From Glutamicibacter sp. PS (lineage in GTDB: Bacteria > Actinomycetota > Actinomycetes > Actinomycetales > Micrococcaceae), in contig JANCMB010000001.1 in NCBI GenBank assembly GCA_031317595.1, forward strand, positions 1,482,971 to 1,546,970: a stretch of DNA of 64,000 nucleotides, read 5' to 3'. Made by a program: the position numbers and the translations under genes. Positions 1,407 through 11,019 of the stretch are shown piece after piece (position 1 is the stretch's first letter; every line of letters begins with the position of its first letter). Under the pieces are notes generated by a model. It worked only from the letters and a program-made list of their open reading frames with translations. It searched no databases and was not told the DNA's origin.

Positions 1407-1816
1407 GGTGGCTCCGTCTCTGGGCGATTGCTGCCCTTGGAGAGATACGGAAGCCCGTCGACAAAGTTCACAAAGAACCACTCGACCGACCGGCAGAACT
1501 CGCGCGCTTGCAGCACTTGCTTCTCGGCCTCGCGGAGCGCCTCCGCCTCGTCGCTGAATGATTTGCGCCAGATCGGATCTTGCTTGGCGTCCCAGACTGT
1601 CACCATCCAGACGCGCTCCCCCGCCGCGAGACCCGGAATGCACCGGATACCAGCGCGAGGCCAAGTCACTGCAGCCGATTCCTGGTGCGTAAAAGGCGTC
1701 TTGCCGCGGTCGCGGTCGATGATGCGCGGCGCCGGAGCCGCTGAGGCCGGGTGCTTCGCCACGCAGATCTGCCGGCGGATCTCCGCCGCGCTGACCTCAC
1801 GTACGGCCGCGGTCAT
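1400..1816 (-). CDS. Hypothetical phage protein, 138 aa
   Basis: I do not recognise this protein. Its start ATG 1816 overlaps the stop of the parB-like gene as ATGA, and its own stop overlaps the whiB start, so it is embedded in the coupled early operon. The sequence has a short N-terminal AAVREVSAAEIRRQI helix, then a central WMVTVWDAKQDPIWRKSF strand-rich part and a charged helix (DEAEALREAEKQVLQAREF). No membrane segment or cysteine cluster is visible. An upstream ATG at 1846 is possible but would lose the coupling. Confidence 0.65.
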   Translation of the reverse strand: MTAAVREVSAAEIRRQICVAKHPASAAPAPRIIDRDRGKTPFTHQESAAVTWPRAGIRCIPGLAAGERVWMVTVWDAKQDPIWRKSFSDEAEALREAEKQVLQAREFCRSVEWFFVNFVDGLPYLSKGSNRPETEPPC

Positions 1817-3321
1817 GCCTTGCCCTCGCTCTCGCACGTCGGGCACGGGCTACCAGGCTGGCCATGTGCGATCGACTGCTGACCGCACCGGCCACACACC
1901 TGCTCACATTCCGCCGGCAGATCCACGTTGTAGGCCTCGACATTCGGACCCTCAGTATCGAGCTCGCGACCCAAATTGATCGCCGCGACCTCATCGCTAT
2001 CCGGGATGTATCCGAAGAATTGGATCAGGCGGTTGTACCAGACAGCCAGCGGACGCCAGCGGTTGCGCTTCTCCCACGAGCCACGGTCGTACCAATTGAA
2101 GCGATAGGACTCTTCCTCGGCTTCGATCTGCTGCAACCAGAGGTAGAGGCGGATCTGCTGGCCAAGAGTCAGCTTCATGACCAATCCCTCGGCCTTCACG
2201 CGCCATTCGTCCCGGCGCTTCGACAAGGATCCTAAGTACTCCTGCTCGTCGCCCTCCGGCTCCGGCGAAGCGAGGCTAATCACCTCACCAACGGCACGAC
2301 ACAGGGCACCTGTGTGGCATTGGGACATGATGTGCTGCGCGAACAGGAGACGATCCTCGATGTCGGCTAGAGCCTGCTTGTCGCGGATCTTCTCGATCGT
2401 AAAGGCGCGCCGTGCACGTTGCGCGGCCGGCAGCACACCGTTCAGACGGCGGATCATCTCCTTCCGGGCCGCGATCACCGGATCGACCCTTGGTGCGGAC
2501 TTCGCCAGCTTCTCCCACCAGGTCACTCCACTTTCGTCGACCTCGTACAGGTGGCCGGCGGCGATGTGCTCCTGATGGCTCAAGACCTTGTCAGTCTTGC
2601 GGTACTTGCCCGAGTAGCGGTGCTCTGAGGCGAGCTCCTCGGCGCCGAACCCGGTCATTTCCTCACGGATCTTCGCCTTCTTTGCGGCCGACTCGGCCAG
2701 AGCGATTTCGCGCTCCACGTCGGCGGCGCCGTACTTCACCCAATGCTTCACGGCGATCTCCGAGGTGACGTGCTCCACCAGATCGGTGGCGCCGGTCTTC
2801 TCCTCATACTCCATAAGCTTGGCGACACCGAGCAGGTCGAGCTTGCCCGTATCGTGCTTCGCGGCGAGCTGTGGGCGCTTACCCAGACCAGCACGGGCCT
2901 TCACCTCGGCCTTCGGGATCGCGAAGTTTCGGGCGATCCATGCCTCAGACTTGCCCTCAGTGAGCATGCCCTGGATAGCGACGCCCTGCTCAGTCGTGGA
3001 CAGCGGGGCGTGGTTGGTGCCGGTAGTCAGCGCCTCGGCGTACAGGTCAGCCTTCGGGGTAGCCGGGGTCGGGATGATACGGCACAAGATCGTGGCCAGA
3101 TCGGCGCGCAACGCGGCCTGGTATCTTCTGTGCCCGCCCTGGATCCGGTACTGACCCTCGAGGTCCGGGTGCTCGTACACGGTGATCGGGTCCATCTGGC
3201 CGATGGCCTTCAGTTCTTTGGCTAGACGGTCCAGATCACCCATGTCCTTGCGTGGGTTATCGGGGTCTGGGTGCACCGCTGAGAGCGGTAATTCTTGAAT
3301 CTCGCCGTGATTTTTGGACAC
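1813..3321 (-). CDS. ParB/Srx-domain protein with C-terminal zinc ribbon (phage)
   Basis: The protein has 502 aa. Residues about 10-100 form a ParB-type N-terminal domain: LPLSAVHPDPDNPRKDM, then the box IQGGHRRYQAAL (residues about 58-69), which corresponds to the CTP/nuclease motif of ParB-like proteins. A predicted helix-turn-helix follows (STTEQGVAIQGML to IPKAEVKARAGL). The C-terminus carries CxxC pairs (CEQVCGRCG and CPTCE) like a zinc ribbon. GTG 3321 has an AGGAGG Shine-Dalgarno six bases upstream. Such proteins are frequent in actinophage early regions. A partition or transcription-regulator role is possible; no parA partner is seen in this part of the prophage. Confidence 0.8.
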   Translation of the reverse strand: MSKNHGEIQELPLSAVHPDPDNPRKDMGDLDRLAKELKAIGQMDPITVYEHPDLEGQYRIQGGHRRYQAALRADLATILCRIIPTPATPKADLYAEALTTGTNHAPLSTTEQGVAIQGMLTEGKSEAWIARNFAIPKAEVKARAGLGKRPQLAAKHDTGKLDLLGVAKLMEYEEKTGATDLVEHVTSEIAVKHWVKYGAADVEREIALAESAAKKAKIREEMTGFGAEELASEHRYSGKYRKTDKVLSHQEHIAAGHLYEVDESGVTWWEKLAKSAPRVDPVIAARKEMIRRLNGVLPAAQRARRAFTIEKIRDKQALADIEDRLLFAQHIMSQCHTGALCRAVGEVISLASPEPEGDEQEYLGSLSKRRDEWRVKAEGLVMKLTLGQQIRLYLWLQQIEAEEESYRFNWYDRGSWEKRNRWRPLAVWYNRLIQFFGYIPDSDEVAAINLGRELDTEGPNVEAYNVDLPAECEQVCGRCGQQSIAHGQPGSPCPTCESEGKA

Positions 3322-3918: not shown

Positions 3919-4208
3919 GACCGATCACCCACTGCCGACTGATCCCGGAAAGGTTCTGCCACGTCCTGCAGCTCTCGCAGGCGCTCGACGAGCTCTTCGC
4001 CACGGACGATGGTGTGGTTGATTGCGCCGTCGATGTTGCCGGTGCTGTCGAAATCAAACCAGACTCCGAGTGCGGCACGAAGGCGATCCGTAGCAAGCTT
4101 CGCCGCCTGGTGCGCCTCGCGCTGCCGGTGGGCCGCCGAGGCCGCCGCTACATCACGCGGAGTCGGGCTCTGGCCTGGTGCCAGCTTCGGGAAGAACCGA
4201 TCTCTCAC
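3915..4208 (-). CDS. Hypothetical phage protein, 97 aa
   Basis: The protein begins VRDRFFPKLAPGQSP and is mainly helical (AHRQREAHQAAKLATDRLRAAL; GEELVERLRELQDVAEPF). GTG 4208 overlaps the stop of the 48-aa gene upstream as GTGA, which decides the start over an ATG at 4295 that would run through that gene. The function is unknown. Confidence 0.6.
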   Translation of the reverse strand: MRDRFFPKLAPGQSPTPRDVAAASAAHRQREAHQAAKLATDRLRAALGVWFDFDSTGNIDGAINHTIVRGEELVERLRELQDVAEPFRDQSAVGDRS

Positions 4209-4351
4209 GCCGCCACCTCCTCGGCCACGACGCCACCCTGGGCTGCCACTTCGGCGAGCCACGAGGCGTACACGCTGGCAGCCCCGACGATGCACTGCTC
4301 TCGAGACTCCACCGCCGAGGGCTTCTCACCCTGTGCTTGTAGACTGGACAT
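4205..4351 (-). CDS. Very small phage protein, 48 aa
   Basis: The open frame runs from ATG 4351 to TGA 4205-4207 and encodes MSSLQAQGEKPSAV... ending EEVAA. A clear AAGGAG lies eight bases before the ATG (4358-4366 region, minus strand), and the stop overlaps the GTG of the next gene as GTGA. Both support a real, coupled gene. No function can be assigned. Confidence 0.55.
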   Translation of the reverse strand: MSSLQAQGEKPSAVESREQCIVGAASVYASWLAEVAAQGGVVAEEVAA

Positions 4352-4392
4352 TGAAATCACTCCTTACTTGCCTGTTCGGTTTTGGTTTCATC

Positions 4393-4426
4393 GCCCTCAC
4401 CAGCTGCAACTGGTGAGGGCTTTTCT
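4393..4426 (+). terminator. Hairpin A, terminator-like on the plus strand
   Basis: GCCCTCACCAG pairs with CTGGTGAGGGC and is followed by TTTTCT on the plus strand. It lies just upstream of leader A. A close relative occurs at 6153-6186 after the second cassette. Confidence 0.6.
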
Positions 4427-4439
4427 ACATCCGGAGCCC

Positions 4440-4521
4440 CCGGACGTTGACCCCTCTCGGTAGACTCAGAGGCTCCTACACCCGCACACATTGGTGCTCC
4501 GCCTACCGAGAGGGAAATCCA
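4440..4521 (+). repeat. Leader element A: inverted repeat that includes the Shine-Dalgarno, ahead of a TTG start
   Basis: The 82-bp leader begins CCGGACGTTGACCCCTCTCG. The left arm CCCTCTCGGTAG (4452-4463) is the exact reverse complement of the right arm CTACCGAGAGGG (4503-4514). The right arm contains the Shine-Dalgarno, and TTG 4522 follows seven bases later. The same element, with identical 39-base loop and spacing, lies at 5839-5920. Folding of the RNA would hide the ribosome site. No well-spaced promoter was identified. Confidence 0.75.
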
Positions 4522-5406
4522 TTGGGAACCACTGAAAGAGCGACCGTCATGGGTGCCGCTCGGAAGCTCCTTTGGGGCAATCACCACCTGGCACGACTCA
4601 AGGCTTCGATAAGCGCTTTCAACAAAACGCATCCGACGCGAACGACCTTGAAACTCAAGCGAGACAATTCCCAGGAGGGCGTCTTCCACGCAGAGTGGTC
4701 CATCGTCGAGGCCACTCTCCCAGACGGAAACTGGCCCTTGATGATCGGAGACGTGCTCAACTGTTACCGCTCCGCCCTCGACCACATCATCAGCGAACAT
4801 GTCCGAAGTGTGCACAAGTTCAGCGCCTCTGACCCTGCTCTGAAGTACCTGTCGTTCCCGATCTCGGACTCCCCCGCTGACTTTCGACGCGACACCAAGA
4901 AGCTTCGCGATGTGGCCGCCCCAGAGTTCCTGGCAGAACTTGAGCGGACGCAGATCTACAGATTCGAACCTGACGCGTACGGCGACTTCTTCAGCCTGAC
5001 CGCCCTCCGAGACCTCAATAACTTGGACAAGCATCGGGGACTTCCATTCACCGACAGCTTCTGGGACCCGAATGACACCATCGCCTACCCGTCCGCGATG
5101 ACCATCTCCGGTTTCGAAACCATCGGCACACGGTGCGAGCCGGGCGCAGTATTCGCCACTGCCCAAGTCGCCGGCAGCACTGCTGAGACTTACATGCAGA
5201 TGGAGCTCAAAGCCACGCGCATAGAAGCGGTACACATCCCGGGAGTCACCGAACCGCAAGACGTTGTTGGCCTCCTCGAGACTCTTGGTCAAGATGTCAT
5301 GGCACTCTGCGGCGCATTTTTCAGCCACCCCGGAGAACCCGAACCGAGCAACCAGCGGGGGTGCGTATTTCCGCACACAGAACCCTGGGAACTTCCCCAC
5401 CCCTAG
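4522..5406 (+). CDS. Prophage cassette protein with RSALDH / LNNLDKHR motifs (HEPN-like candidate)
   Basis: The protein has 294 aa from TTG 4522, chosen because the Shine-Dalgarno in the leader repeat sits seven bases upstream and the second cassette starts at the identical position. The sequence contains CYRSALDHI (about residues 82-90) and LRDLNNLDKHR (about 162-172). From memory these resemble a widespread, uncharacterised bacterial family with a LRSALDH...LNNIDKHR signature. RSALDH fits the R-x4-H pattern of HEPN ribonucleases, so an RNase or defence role is a hypothesis only. It is read opposite to the surrounding early operon, like a moron (an extra prophage gene with its own signals). 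The reverse-strand frame of 366 codons over the same DNA is a shadow. Confidence 0.75.
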   Translation: MGTTERATVMGAARKLLWGNHHLARLKASISAFNKTHPTRTTLKLKRDNSQEGVFHAEWSIVEATLPDGNWPLMIGDVLNCYRSALDHIISEHVRSVHKFSASDPALKYLSFPISDSPADFRRDTKKLRDVAAPEFLAELERTQIYRFEPDAYGDFFSLTALRDLNNLDKHRGLPFTDSFWDPNDTIAYPSAMTISGFETIGTRCEPGAVFATAQVAGSTAETYMQMELKATRIEAVHIPGVTEPQDVVGLLETLGQDVMALCGAFFSHPGEPEPSNQRGCVFPHTEPWELPHP

Positions 5407-5456
5407 TCCATGTGGATCACGCCCGTCCTGGACATTATTTGAGTAACCCATGGCCA

Positions 5457-5651
5457 CTAACCCAGGAACTCAGTCATGAGCATGAGCCATCCACCGAGCA
5501 CCAAGAGCGCTACCAGGATCGCAAAGACCAGGAAGGGAACTACCCAAATCCCGGCAACCAACGGTGCGAGCCAAAGAATCGCCCAGATGTAGAGCGTGAT
5601 CACGACTCCCAAGCCCAATACCCCAACTACCAGCCCTAAGAGATCCCACAT
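5457..5651 (-). CDS. Small membrane protein, 64 aa
   Basis: The protein begins MWDLLGLVVGVLGLGVVITL and consists almost entirely of two to three hydrophobic segments (ILWLAPLVAGIWVVPF; LVALLVLGGWLMLM). ATG 5651 has GGAAGG seven bases upstream. A longer frame starting at 5756 overlaps the stop of the gene upstream as ATGA, so a 99-aa form cannot be excluded. It lies between the two leader-carrying cassettes but is read with the early operon. Confidence 0.6.
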   Translation of the reverse strand: MWDLLGLVVGVLGLGVVITLYIWAILWLAPLVAGIWVVPFLVFAILVALLVLGGWLMLMTEFLG

Positions 5652-5752
5652 GATGCTTCCTTCCCTGATCCACGCGCAGTTCGTGATTTGACGCGCCTGC
5701 GCTTCGGGTGAGCTCTCGTACACCCACCAATTGATTCCTGGTTTAGCCCCAC

Positions 5753-6457
5753 TCATCGCGACCGCCGCGCAGCCATACTCTGGTCGCCTCCGTCGCCTTT
5801 CGCCGGGCCTCGAGCATTACCGCGAGGCTTCGCCGCTGCCGGACGTTGACCCCTCTCGGTAGACTCAGAGGTTCCTATACCTGCGCCATACGGCGCGCCA
5901 TCTACCGAGAGGGAAGTACTTTGAGACTGGACGAATGGTTGGATGTCGAGTTGAACCTCGCGCTGGAGAAGTTTTCCAACGACACCCTGGCCGACAAGGT
6001 TGGCATTCTGAATAAGGTCGTCGCCGCCCAACACGCCACTATCAAACTCATGCTCAAGCGGATGGAGGTCGCCGGACTGACTTTCCCCGATATGGACATT
6101 CCGGAGTAAGCGATCGCTACACTCACGGAGATCTTCACGAAGGCTCCCTCCGCCCTCACCAGTTGCCGCTGGTGAGGGTTCTTTCGTTTCCGCTGTCCGC
6201 TTGTAGTCGCGCCAAGCTTGAGCTACTTCCAGCGCGTTGGCCTGCATTAGTCCTAAGAACGCGTACTTGGCTTCTTCCGATTCCTTAGCTTGGCGATACA
6301 GCTCAATGCCTGAGACATCCTCGCCGTAGACCAACAAGCTGTCTGCGAGCTCTACGGCGAGGTTTTCGCGGTAGCGACGAGCTTTCTCCCAGGCGTCCAT
6401 GGCTTCGGTGAGTTGGTCGGCGGCTTCTTCGAGTTCGCGTTTCAGTGACTCGCTCAT
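5753..6457 (-). CDS. Hypothetical coiled-coil protein; C-terminal half doubtful
   Basis: The first ~100 residues (MSESLKRELEEAADQLTEAM... VAQAWRDYKRTAETKEPS) are a convincing helical, coiled-coil protein. ATG 6457 overlaps the stop of the XRE regulator as ATGA. Beyond about position 6150 the frame runs antisense through hairpin B, the 62-aa gene and leader B, and becomes low-quality sequence ending SMAARRSR. The true gene may once have ended elsewhere: the reading EPSPAATGEG across hairpin B resembles EKPSPVAAGEGD across hairpin A, near another early-operon stop at 4357. I infer that the cassette insertion changed its 3' end. Confidence 0.5.
   Translation of the reverse strand: MSESLKRELEEAADQLTEAMDAWEKARRYRENLAVELADSLLVYGEDVSGIELYRQAKESEEAKYAFLGLMQANALEVAQAWRDYKRTAETKEPSPAATGEGGGSLREDLRECSDRLLRNVHIGESQSGDLHPLEHEFDSGVLGGDDLIQNANLVGQGVVGKLLQREVQLDIQPFVQSQSTSLSVDGAPYGAGIGTSESTERGQRPAAAKPRGNARGPAKGDGGDQSMAARRSR
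5839..5920 (+). repeat. Leader element B: second copy of the inverted-repeat leader
   Basis: It starts with the same CCGGACGTTGACCCCTCTCG. Arms are CCCTCTCGGTAG (5851-5862) and CTACCGAGAGGG (5902-5913). The loop is 39 bases, as in copy A, and TTG 5921 is seven bases after the right arm. Differences from copy A lie mostly in the second half of the loop, and both arms are intact. Confidence 0.75.
5921..6109 (+). CDS. Small prophage cassette protein, 62 aa
   Basis: TTG 5921 begins a protein reading (M)RLDEWLDVELNLALEKFSND and ending FPDMDIPE. It is acidic, probably all-helical and amphipathic, and has no membrane segment. The start is set by the leader repeat: the Shine-Dalgarno GAGAGGG lies seven bases upstream, exactly as for the gene at 4522. 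A terminator hairpin follows at 6153. It is unrelated in sequence to the first cassette gene, so the leader rather than the protein is what is shared. Confidence 0.6.
   Translation: MRLDEWLDVELNLALEKFSNDTLADKVGILNKVVAAQHATIKLMLKRMEVAGLTFPDMDIPE
6153..6186 (+). terminator. Hairpin B, terminator of the second cassette
   Basis: CCCTCACCAG (6153-6162) pairs with CTGGTGAGGG (6169-6178), followed by TTCTTTC. It closely resembles hairpin A at 4393 and ends the plus-strand transcript of the 62-aa gene. Confidence 0.7.
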
Positions 6458-6777
6458 GCCACCCTCACTCCACTCGATTTTTCGTTTTCTACAACACTTG
6501 TCACTGTGGGCACGACTTCATGCTCTTCGAGGACGAAGAGGTCCTCCCAGTCGGTGAACAAGCGAGCCGAGATCAGCAGAGCAAGGTCCTCGGACAAGGT
6601 TTTCATCTTGCCGGTTTCGAGCTGGTGGATCGTCGCTTGCGATCGCCGCACCAACACAGCCAGATCGCGCTGACTGAATCGCTGATTAATTCGCTTCCGC
6701 CGCAATGCGGCGGGATCCTTCACCCTCATCCAACTCTCCTTTCGAACGAGATTCAGATTCCTCCGGGCCTTACGCAT
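6454..6777 (-). CDS. XRE-family helix-turn-helix regulator (Cro-like)
   Basis: The 107-aa protein contains an XRE DNA-binding domain (RRKRINQRFSQRDLAVLVRR, then SQATIHQLETGK) in its first half. A short C-terminal part is acidic (DWEDLFVLEEHEV). ATG 6777 has GAAGGA nine bases upstream. It is the first gene of the leftward early operon and is divergent from the repressor at 6956, the usual position of Cro. It could instead act as an excision regulator. The shared intergenic region holds repeated CACTTTTC boxes. Confidence 0.8.
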   Translation of the reverse strand: MRKARRNLNLVRKESWMRVKDPAALRRKRINQRFSQRDLAVLVRRSQATIHQLETGKMKTLSEDLALLISARLFTDWEDLFVLEEHEVVPTVTSVVENEKSSGVRVA

Positions 6778-6791
6778 CACTAGTATTCCTT

Positions 6792-6911
6792 CCACTTTTC
6801 ACTTTGACAAGTCTATCTTGAAACACTCGGCATCTAGTTGTCAATCCGAAAAGTGGATTAAGCCCCGCAATTGTTGGGAAGATGCACTTATCACTTTTCA
6901 TCTTGGAAGTG
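6792..6911. promoter_or_regulatory. Divergent immunity control region with repeated CACTTTTC operators
   Basis: CACTTTTC occurs at 6793-6800 and 6892-6899 and, inverted, as GAAAAGTG at 6849-6856. The last forward copy is part of a near-palindrome CACTTTTCATCTTGGAAGTG. Two opposed TTGACAA boxes (6804-6810 and, on the minus strand, 6844-6838) look like -35 elements of overlapping divergent promoters; -10 elements are weak. Confidence 0.55.
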
Positions 6912-6955
6912 GCTCGCATTGAGCAAGTGAGAGTTGATCGTAGAAAGTCGTGGTT

Positions 6956-7609
6956 GTGAACGATACAGATTCCCTCAAGGGACTAGTCGAGATTGCGGTT
7001 GAGCGGCACGATACGTCCGTGCGTCAACTCGCGGCGAAGGCCCATGATGCTGGTTTCAAGGTCACGTACACGACGCTCCACCAAATCCGATCCGGGAAAT
7101 ACAAATCGGCACCCGGCGAGCAGACTGTACGCGCCATCGCCTACTTGGCCGGTGTTGAGGAATCCGTAGCGTTCGCAGCAGCGGGACAACCAGTCCCCGG
7201 CCCGCCACTCGCCGACGAACTACCACCTGGCGCGGACAACCTGTCCCCGAAATCCCGGAAAGCAGTCGTAGACATGGTGCGGGTCCTCGTCGACCTAGAG
7301 GCACAGACCAATGCTCAACACGAACAGCATCCACAAGACAAGCCACCGCGTTCTATGCGATCCGTGGCGACGGCCGATCACCCTGGCAAGGGACAGAAGA
7401 GCGAGACTTACCCGCGGCCGAATGACATTGAGCTCGACATAGACCGAGCAGGGATCCCTCAACTACACGGCAACGAAGCCCAGGAGCATCCGCTCCCACC
7501 ACTGGAGCAGCTCGCCGCACACCCGTACTTCGAATCCGAGCGTGAGAAATTTGACCGTATACACGGCACCCGAGGCGAAGATCACCAGAACTCAGAAGTA
7601 GACCCCTGA
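6956..7609 (+). CDS. Prophage immunity repressor (HTH)
   Basis: The protein has 217 aa. The N-terminal ~65 residues form an XRE-like DNA-binding domain (LVEIAVERHDTSVRQLAAKA, VTYTTLHQIRSGKY, EQTVRAIAYLAGV). This is followed by a proline- and glutamate-rich variable region. Of GTG 6950 and GTG 6956, the second is better spaced from AGAAAG (6942-6947). Gene order (divergent from a Cro-like gene, same strand as ImmA and integrase) makes this the likely lysogeny repressor. It would bind the CACTTTTC boxes upstream. Confidence 0.75.
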   Translation: MNDTDSLKGLVEIAVERHDTSVRQLAAKAHDAGFKVTYTTLHQIRSGKYKSAPGEQTVRAIAYLAGVEESVAFAAAGQPVPGPPLADELPPGADNLSPKSRKAVVDMVRVLVDLEAQTNAQHEQHPQDKPPRSMRSVATADHPGKGQKSETYPRPNDIELDIDRAGIPQLHGNEAQEHPLPPLEQLAAHPYFESEREKFDRIHGTRGEDHQNSEVDP

Positions 7610-9564: not shown

Positions 9565-11019
9565 ATGAACGCCAAGAAAACTACGCCGGTGCGGCCCCGC
9601 GCCGTGCTCTACCTCAGGCAGTCGATCGCCCGCGAGGACTCCATCAGCCTCGAGCTGCAGGAAGATGCCGGCCGGCGATACTGCGAGCAGTCCGGCTACC
9701 AGGTCGTGGCCGTCGAGGCCGACCCGGGCATCAGCGGCCGCACCTGGAACCGCCCCGCCGTACAGCGCGTCATGGGCATGATCGAGAACGGCGATGCCGA
9801 GGTCATCGTCCTGTGGAAGTGGTCGAGGCTCTCGCGCGCCCGCCTGGACTGGGCCGTGGCCATCGACAAGGTGGAAAGCGCTGGCGGCCGCATCGAGTCT
9901 GCCACCGAGTCCGTGGACGTCTCCACCTCGACCGGCCGGTTCGCCCGCGGCATGCTCGCCGAGTTCGCTGCCTTCGAATCCGAAAGGATCGGTGACACGT
10001 GGCGCGAAGCCCACCGGCGCCGAGTCGAGAGCGGCCGGCCAGCGAGCGGCAGGAAACGCTTCGGATACAACTACAACCGCTCGACAGGGTTCACCCCGCA
10101 CCCCATCGAGGGCCCTATCGTCCAGGAAAGCTACAGGCGCTACCTACTCGGCGATTCCTTCCAGACCATCGCCGCGTGGCTTAACAGCACCGACGTACGC
10201 CCCAGCCCCGGCTACGGCCCCACGAAATCCGGCCTCTGGTCCGACCGTGCCATCAAACGGGTCCTAGATAACCCGTTCGCCTCCGGCAAGTTCACGCACA
10301 AGGGTGAGCTCTATCAAGGCATTCACGAGCCCCTGATCACCGAAGAACAATGGGAAGAGTACCTGGTGCGTAGGAAGGCCCGTTATGTGCACCGCCGGGG
10401 AGAAAAGACCCAGTACCTTCTCACCGGGTACATCTGCTGCGGACAGTGCGGCTACGGCATGTATGCCGGTCTTTTTGGCCACGACCGCACACTCAAATAT
10501 CGGTGCTCGGGAGCAGCCAATTTCCGGATCCACCCGGGCGGGTACGTCACCGAGAAAGTCATCATGGCAGCGCTACGCTCTTGGCTCGGTGAACTCGTCG
10601 AGGAGCTCAACGCTCAGGCGGCGAGCGCCACCGTGAAGATGCCGGTGCTGCCGGACAGGACTGCGGCGTTGAACCGGCAGTTGATAAAGAACAGCGCGCG
10701 CTTGGACAATCTCACCACTCGGTTCATCGATGAGCTAATCCCAGCAGACGTGTACCAGCGGATGCGGGACGAGCTTCTGTCGGAGAAGAGCCGGCTAGAG
10801 AATGACCTGATGGAGGCGCGGGTGATTTCCCGGAAGCCGGCTGTGGAGTTGGCGCCGGATTTGATGGACCACTGGGATCAGATGCCGTTGACGGTGCGGC
10901 GGGAGATCCTGTCCCGTGTCGTGGGAAAGATTGTCGTGACGTCGAAACGACCTCAGTCGGAGGTTAGGATTGTCGCTAAATGGGAGGATAAGCCCAAGTC
11001 AGAGCCGAGTAGCAATTAG
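9565..11019 (+). CDS. Large serine integrase
   Basis: The protein has 484 aa. The resolvase catalytic domain occupies about residues 12-155 with nucleophile Ser20 (YLRQS) and arginines in KWSRLSRARLD. The recombinase domain follows (GYNYNRSTG ... WSDRAIKRVLDNP). A zinc ribbon has Cys292, Cys295 and a partner in KYRCSG. The C-terminal coiled coil (AALNRQLIKN ... DELLSEKSRLENDL) is typical. ATG 9565 has AGGAAG at good distance. The enzyme recombines attP and attB and, with a directionality factor not identified here, excises the prophage. The gene ends within 15 bp of the inferred host junction, as expected for the integrase-proximal end. Confidence 0.95.
   Translation: MNAKKTTPVRPRAVLYLRQSIAREDSISLELQEDAGRRYCEQSGYQVVAVEADPGISGRTWNRPAVQRVMGMIENGDAEVIVLWKWSRLSRARLDWAVAIDKVESAGGRIESATESVDVSTSTGRFARGMLAEFAAFESERIGDTWREAHRRRVESGRPASGRKRFGYNYNRSTGFTPHPIEGPIVQESYRRYLLGDSFQTIAAWLNSTDVRPSPGYGPTKSGLWSDRAIKRVLDNPFASGKFTHKGELYQGIHEPLITEEQWEEYLVRRKARYVHRRGEKTQYLLTGYICCGQCGYGMYAGLFGHDRTLKYRCSGAANFRIHPGGYVTEKVIMAALRSWLGELVEELNAQAASATVKMPVLPDRTAALNRQLIKNSARLDNLTTRFIDELIPADVYQRMRDELLSEKSRLENDLMEARVISRKPAVELAPDLMDHWDQMPLTVRREILSRVVGKIVVTSKRPQSEVRIVAKWEDKPKSEPSSN

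Follow-up and report, generated by a model that had tools for sequence, protein, structure and literature searches.

Here, we analysed a leader sequence, hereafter element E, that occurs twice in a 64,000-nucleotide stretch (the window) of the genome of Glutamicibacter sp. PS (3,435,955 bases, 14 contigs). The initial annotation had described it as a duplicated leader at 4440-4521 and 5839-5920, and its coordinates, the arms CCCTCTCGGTAG / CTACCGAGAGGG, the 39-nucleotide (nt) loop and the TTG starts were all confirmed, the TTG lying 7 nt past the right arm in both copies, at 4522 and 5921. The two copies, E1 and E2, share 81% identity over 88 nt and head the list of direct-repeat families in the first 20 kb. 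Exact arm matches in the window are limited to these four sites; when up to two mismatches were allowed, six matches were obtained against 5.88 expected by chance, and it is therefore the paired arrangement and not the arm alone that stands out. Both genes that follow a copy of E (E-genes) lie on the plus strand, antisense to long minus-strand open frames (4357-5457 and 5753-6457), and plus-strand terminator-like hairpins, T1 and T2, are present as well; neither the antisense position nor the hairpins had been noted in the initial annotation. The locus comprises the following features.

4440-4521, plus strand: leader E1, with arms at 4452-4463 and 4503-4514
4461-4466, plus strand: TAGACT at the end of the left arm, proposed -10 hexamer (the 110 nt preceding the start contain no other TANNNT); RNA predicted to begin near 4473
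4484-4497, plus strand: inner hairpin 2 of E1, GCACA-CATT-GGTGC, one mismatch
4503-4514, plus strand: right arm of E1, containing the Shine-Dalgarno (SD) sequence GAGAGGG
4522-5406, plus strand: gene 1, 294 amino acids, TTG start, no family match
4393-4420, plus strand: T1, an intrinsic-terminator-like hairpin followed by TTTT, upstream of E1
4357-5457, minus strand: open frame antisense to the whole of gene 1, E1 and T1; its stop lies 5 nt ahead of the next minus-strand ATG (4351)
5839-5920, plus strand: leader E2, with arms at 5851-5862 and 5902-5913
5860-5865, plus strand: TAGACT, proposed -10 hexamer of E2; predicted RNA start near 5872
5883-5896, plus strand: inner hairpin 2 of E2, GCGCC-ATAC-GGCGC
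5921-6109, plus strand: gene 2, 62 amino acids, TTG start, homologous to the E-gene of viral contig L005 (70.7% over 58 amino acids)
6152-6179, plus strand: T2, a terminator-like hairpin about 43 nt 3' of gene 2
5753-6457, minus strand: open reading frame (ORF) of 234 amino acids; gene 2 and E2 lie opposite its 3' part, and its TGA stop codon overlaps the start codon of the following open frame (ATG at 5756)
5457-5756, minus strand: open frame between the two cassettes, 99 amino acids, with a hydrophobic stretch

The region resembles the immunity end of a prophage, with a ParB-like gene (1813-3321, minus strand), a regulator-like gene (6457-6795, minus strand), a repressor-like gene (6950-7609, plus strand) and an integrase (9565-11019, plus strand). 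Its gene arrangement is similar to that of Arthrobacter phage Maja, and we thus take the minus-strand genes to be an early lytic operon. A sequence-specific operator shared between E and the immunity region was considered and rejected, as no other arm site within one mismatch occurs in the window. Neither gene 1 nor gene 2 matched a family in Pfam, NCBIfam, PHROGs or PADLOC.

The leader pattern is not a product of chance. Its gapped arm pattern was found in exact form in five viral_contigs stretches and in a slightly looser form in one contig of Glutamicibacter protophormiae; exact and loosened patterns together placed E outside the window in seven separate viral contigs (L001, L002, L004, L005, L014, L016 and L018) and in G. 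protophormiae, whose copy (NZ_BMPH01000003.1) is identical to that of genome G017 of the same genus. A covariance model (R1; E-value ≤0.001) matched 4 of 18 genomes of the genus (one match, L092, was judged chance) and 11 of 395 genomes of the family (L100 and L101 among them were judged chance), and a second model (R2) matched 5 of 396 genomes of the order, two of which belong to another family, as well as 1 of 38 genomes in the genus of genome G248; both models were trained on copies which they then match. Regions adjoining a ParB-like gene (15 of 395 genomes) yielded two extra copies, L140 and L138, with E-values of 2.9e-4 and 4.9e-4. In total, the family comprises 26 copies by our count, found in phages of Glutamicibacter type and in related actinobacterial genomes, where not every copy necessarily lies in a prophage. 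They precede genes of several unrelated families, in line with the initial description of a portable, start-associated element.

Left out of these counts were L003 (same E as L002), L019 (same E as L001) and L102 (contig of L096), a decayed copy without start codon in L096 (1408-1477), reverse-strand self-matches of the palindrome and, as chance, the pattern matches L015, L017 and L020-L023 and the model matches L092, L100 and L101 (E-values 2.4e-4 to 4.9e-4). L138 and L140 are absent from the pairing (20 copies), mismatch (24 copies) and first antisense-stop (24 genes) counts given below and were added in a later recount. A looser pattern returned 70 stretches, of which those other than known copies looked unrelated. 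Among 50,697 phage records nothing similar to window positions 4380-6200 was found, a 71-nt query gave 20 weak matches (best E-value 0.6) and tblastn of four E-gene proteins gave none. Rfam contained no family for window positions 4300-6300 at an E-value ≤1, and model R2 had no match in three Arthrobacter phage stretches or in the cluster EF Microbacterium phage AnnaSerena, searched over positions 1-50000 of 56707 bases up to an E-value of 5. In contig L148 (G029:C34), a decayed copy without start codon (5006-5077) lies directly upstream of an intact one, which suggests tandem duplication.

The proteins encoded behind E are diverse. Of ten E-gene proteins compared with Pfam, three matched DUF7882 above the curated cut-off and one below it, while others are distant relatives of these or unrelated; for six proteins, no defence family was found. 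DUF7882 was rejected as a general key to E: it occurs in 0 of 18 genomes of the genus and in 6 of 295 of the family, one of these six loci is the E copy L095, and inspection by eye revealed no clear E at the other five, of which L106 carries a short CTCCG/CGGAG pair.

From 5' to 3', E consists of a left arm ending in TAGACT, TAGGCT or TAGGAT, a loop, a right arm with the SD sequence, a spacer of usually 7 nt (10 nt in L002 and L094) and the start codon. The arms measure 12 bp and the loops about 24 to 48 nt; in most copies the loop holds a small covarying hairpin, which L014, for example, lacks. Aligning 20 copies revealed two-sided changes at 7 of 12 pairs of the outer stem and at 2 of 5 pairs of the inner hairpin. 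For the whole structure, 94.0% of cells are paired, compared to 41-52% when the partners are slid by one to three columns, and the covariation score of 0.223 was reached by none of 500 shuffles (mean 0.106). The alignment leans towards the stem because it was built with a model containing most of it. The arms of L095, CCCCATCTGT/ACAGATGGGG, differ from the window arms at several positions and still match each other. Judged from these comparisons, pairing of the stem is under selection.

Why should the arm that pairs with the SD also carry a promoter-like hexamer? In 25 of 26 copies exactly one TANNNT occurs in the 110 nt before the start, and it is placed in the left arm. The A of the hexamer is kept in 23 of 24 copies, although its partner in the stem is mismatched in six of these, and L018 has a second copy whose left arm is eroded while TAGACT and the right arm are intact. 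With the sole TANNNT in the left arm, the gene's own transcript probably lacks this arm. RNA folding predicts a large consequence: the median probability that the SD is unpaired is 0.01 when the left arm is present and 0.51 for an RNA starting 7 nt after the hexamer, and predicted accessibility is higher without the left arm in 25 of 26 copies. The initial annotation had regarded E as a translational control hairpin. Selection on pairing and the stem covering the SD agree with that view, which is nonetheless incomplete, as the left arm also holds the only TANNNT in 25 of 26 copies.

Around these features, several smaller ones recur. The T hairpins at 4393-4420 and 6152-6179 read as xPSPxAxGEG on the minus strand, inside the open frames, and T-like hairpins end about 33 nt upstream of the left arm in 9 of 11 close copies of E. 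A small palindrome of changing sequence (e.g. CCGG-N5-CCGG, GCCC-N4-GGGC) lies at window positions 4430-4445, just upstream of the left arm, and was seen by eye at the same site in L001, L002, L004, L018 and G636.

The strand opposite to E and its gene is conspicuously free of stop codons. The best of the three antisense frames is open over 100% of the E-gene in 24 of 26 copies; in 23 copies the open frame is codon-aligned and, except in L099, runs through E as well. Codons that create an antisense stop (TTA, CTA, TCA) number 2 among the 2513 codons of 24 E-genes, compared to 24.7 expected (P 6e-9), an expectation based on control genes picked by hand from the opposite operon of these phages (81 in 8256 codons). 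For the Glutamicibacter-type genes without L138 and L140, the count is 2 in 1336 codons against 13.1 expected (P 2e-4). L138 (3341-4102) is open in a different antisense frame over 254 codons, from just past the stop of the preceding gene to beyond the start of the next, and its two other antisense frames hold 5 and 16 stops. The stop of the antisense ORF and the next start are separated by -8 to +20 nt in 18 of 26 copies, as found in an automatic search of about -11 to +60 nt made without a null; by eye, the antisense ORF abuts or overlaps the next start in w2 (the gene 2 copy), L016a and L138 as well. In G636, three antisense ORFs follow one another; the first and second end in ATGA overlaps, the third ends in a TGATG overlap, and one of them has about 17 codons of its own ahead of its antisense part. 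Two N-terminal queries for empty versions of the minus-strand ORF returned only contigs already in the set.

Among the 25 copies with the hexamer, 22 have a hexamer-to-start distance of 46, 49, 58, 61, 64, 67 or 70 nt, all 1 modulo 3 (exceptions L097, L099 and L140), and such 3-nt steps are predicted by a coding constraint running through E. The plus frame cannot cause this phase, as it is closed by an in-frame TGA within the right arm of L091 and by stops inside E of L094 and L095.

Which of the two strands, then, codes for a protein under constraint? Differences at codon positions 1/2/3 amount to 18/12/33 between gene 2 and its L005 homologue and to 7/7/26 between L016a and L091; a third pair, L016b/L018a, is nearly identical (5 differences, 0/2/3). 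Read on the plus strand, synonymous and nonsynonymous changes are 30:33 for the first pair and 24:16 for the second, and on the minus strand 13:50 and 7:33. By this measure, the plus-strand protein is constrained, and the minus-strand protein seems merely to be kept open, its amino acids not being conserved.

Two side observations concern the antisense arrangement. In L147, a gene at 1831-2472 (minus strand) resembles the L140 E-gene by eye and likewise lies antisense; it is preceded by a T-like hairpin, lacks E and shows three antisense stops. In L142, the opposite-operon ORF at 2366-3244 looks like an HNH-type protein cut short by an antisense cassette, and L146 has a shorter ORF there (2048-2674) without cassette (by eye).

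We hypothesise that E is a compact gene-start module, combining promoter and ribosome site, for genes that lie antisense inside an apparent early lytic operon, a reading that we regard as evenly poised between right and wrong. The hexamer at the end of the left arm would act as -10 box, with transcription starting in the loop about 7 nt downstream. The gene's own mRNA would then carry inner hairpin 2 (where present) and the right arm, leaving the SD free, usually 7 nt from the start codon. RNA that reads through from outside would carry both arms, fold the 12-bp stem and hide the SD. Combined with the terminator-like hairpin T upstream of many copies, the stem would make the gene respond to its own promoter and not to read-through. 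The opposite strand keeps a frame open across the gene and, in most cases, across E, and this frame often ends close to the next start on that strand; ribosomes could therefore follow RNA polymerase across the insert and genes downstream would be spared polar termination. Strong lytic transcription would silence the antisense gene, and its expression would thus fall mainly into the lysogen. A broader version, which we put forward tentatively and consider somewhat more likely wrong than right, views these loci as ambigrammatic cassettes in temperate phages of Glutamicibacter and relatives: a lysogeny gene with its leader would occupy one strand, and the other would be stop-free purely as a ribosome bridge for the early lytic transcript, such that one DNA serves as promoter, RNA insulator and coding bridge and reverse-oriented genes could join a lytic operon without polarity.

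Several observations weigh against this hypothesis. At the leader, no -35 box is recognisable (a sigma-70 scan of 4200-6300 found none), L096b keeps the stem and has no TANNNT, the hexamer of L097 is displaced by 5 nt, and in L140 the stem is weak and the fold test is reversed (0.86 for the long and 0.53 for the short RNA). A strong T-like hairpin was found upstream of only some copies. The number of further pair types shows no excess (12 compared to 12.4 in shuffles), and the non-Watson-Crick cells of the stem in 24 copies comprise 14 of A-C type, two G-U and seven others. The constraint on hexamer and SD may cause part of the A-C excess; still, mismatches of A-C rather than G-U type are not what an RNA stem on the plus strand predicts and weaken that reading, and we thus keep a role in DNA or in minus-strand RNA under consideration. 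On the opposite strand, antisense stops leave L004a and L140 open over only 79% and 78%, and L099 has a frame that terminates within E. Recounting with L138 and L140 tempers the scarcity of antisense-stop codons to 11 in 2909 compared to 28.5 expected (P 1.6e-4), and for the 15 Glutamicibacter-type genes to 11 in 1732 compared to 17.0 (P 0.085; the open frame of L138 is a different one). Four DUF7882 genes from other genera, of uncertain context, hold only one antisense-stop codon in 434, three of them being open in the codon-aligned frame, and codon usage therefore contributes to antisense openness.

The last two points also speak for an alternative in which antisense openness is no more than a side effect of the codon usage of GC-rich genomes, a case in which the leader part of the model could still hold. 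We consider this explanation doubtful, though deserving of some weight: it has to contend with 2 antisense stops where 24.7 were expected in 24 genes, with L138, which is open in another frame while the two remaining ones hold 5 and 16 stops, with the 18 of 26 ORFs that end near a next start and with an E length that varies in steps of 3 nt.

Other alternatives concern the stem. It might fold within the gene's own mRNA, starting upstream of the left arm, and be opened by a factor or condition, which is the translational control proposed in the initial annotation. A stem that covers the SD and whose pairing is selected fits this, but no copy offers a TANNNT other than that of the arm in the 110 nt before the start, T-like hairpins end shortly upstream of the left arm in most close copies, the hexamer A is kept where pairing is lost and the mismatches are not of the G-U type. 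We therefore judge this explanation unlikely. Similarly improbable in our view are arms that act as half-sites or operators for a DNA-binding regulator, with symmetry needed in the DNA and not in the RNA. Tolerance of A-C and other mismatches without G-U preference would suit such sites, as would the tendency of arm sequences to be common to the copies of one genome, and extended start-associated sequence (ESAS) inverted repeats have been proposed as protein sites in the sections available to us of two papers (PMC3203893, PMC11373665). Against this, the hexamer-start spacing changes in steps of 3 nt (46 to 70 nt, 22 of 25) and not in helical turns, the window has no further arm site within one mismatch, and the covarying inner hairpin 2 is not explained by a two-site operator.

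Alternatively, the stem could act in the opposite-strand RNA near the end of the open frame, where the A-C mismatches of the plus strand become G-U pairs (14 compared to 2). With hexamer, SD and short start spacing all tied to the stem on the plus strand, and no U-tract following the stem on the minus strand in the window, we give this explanation little credence. Finally, an N-terminal fusion peptide encoded by the leader, which the initial annotation had raised since the plus frame is open from TTGs at 4447 and 5846 in both window leaders, and to which E lengths of 63, 60 and 51 nt (multiples of 3) lend a further hint, has practically no chance as a general explanation given the in-frame stops of L091, L094 and L095, the TAG of L005 at the TTG position with no ATG, GTG or TTG between it and the gene start, and a 3-nt phase that the minus-strand frame accounts for.

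The gene-start module that we favour resembles known systems in parts. In the leader of T4 gene e, as described in the accessible text, the promoter lies in the DNA for the 5' strand of an SD-sequestering hairpin, so that long transcripts are blocked and the gene's own are free, and E has the stem arrangement described there for gene e (PMC3014915). Compared to the T4 gene e, soc, 49 and I-TevI leaders, which use late promoters, E has a TANNNT hexamer and is a repeated, portable module located antisense inside other open frames. The gene e-type pattern of an SD sequestered in long RNA and not in RNA starting inside the stem is predicted for 25 of 26 copies, and the stem 5' strand contains TANNNT in 25 of 26, without -35 box. 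Transposase genes of IS10 and IS50 are protected from read-through in a comparable manner, by a stem whose upstream arm is present, and sequesters the start region, only in outside transcripts; unlike E, these are transposon ends without an antisense host ORF.

The initial annotation had also likened E to ESAS elements. Start-associated sequences (SAS) and ESAS form a repeated element directly upstream of starts in cluster K mycobacteriophages and cluster EF Microbacterium phages, to the extent covered by the sections consulted (PMC3203893, PMC7302621, PMC11373665), and SigA-like promoters have been proposed inside those of Adephagia in one of these (PMC11373665). The likeness holds for the position at starts and for the presence of inverted repeats in cluster K. 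It ends at the arms: those of cluster K ESAS lie upstream of SAS and, in the part of the report available, RNA pairing between them is unsupported (PMC3203893), whereas in E the arms covary and the SD is part of the right one. ESAS have 17-bp imperfect inverted repeats with spacers of mostly 4-13 bp, in contrast to the shorter arms and longer loops of E, and the 13-bp SAS consensus (GGGATAGGAGCCC or GGGAAAGGACCCC) is by inspection absent from right arms and SD sequences of E. At the 10 SAS sites of AnnaSerena, no arm complementary to SAS was seen by eye. Since this phage, the one cluster EF phage compared, yielded no E over positions 1-50000 of 56707 bases and ESAS arms are reported without pairing, we conclude that E is not a member of the SAS/ESAS group. 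Upstream of the 10 SAS sites of AnnaSerena (L117), TAGACT and TAGGCT occur once each, and by eye a TANNNT hexamer lies 14 to 35 nt upstream of every site, which suggests that these hexamers are -10 boxes and its ESAS promoters.

For the opposite strand, the closest likeness is to ambigrammatic narnaviruses, in which the reverse strand is open, reverse amino acids are less conserved than forward ones and the act of translation is proposed to matter, according to the passages available (PMC8316113). E cassettes share the open reverse frame with unconserved amino acids, with the limits that 2 of 26 are not fully open and that codon usage contributes; they differ in being double-stranded DNA phage cassettes of 58-294 codons, while narnaviruses are RNA viruses. 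In the literature covered, mostly open-access papers available in part and without bioRxiv preprints, we found no description of E.

If true, our hypothesis would show how lysogeny genes of a temperate phage can enter an essential lytic operon in reverse orientation, with a leader that blocks stray expression while the opposite strand stays translatable. It would also permit a direct test, at the level of codons, of the idea that phage operons are protected from polar termination by ribosome coverage, and would supply a searchable signature, consisting of covariance model and open antisense frame, with which to find lysogeny genes likely to be overlooked by strand-exclusive gene callers. Apart from E, many metagenome viral contigs, including L025, L051, L055, L063 and L077, carry an unrelated long palindromic repeat (TCTCGGTAGGCATGC...).

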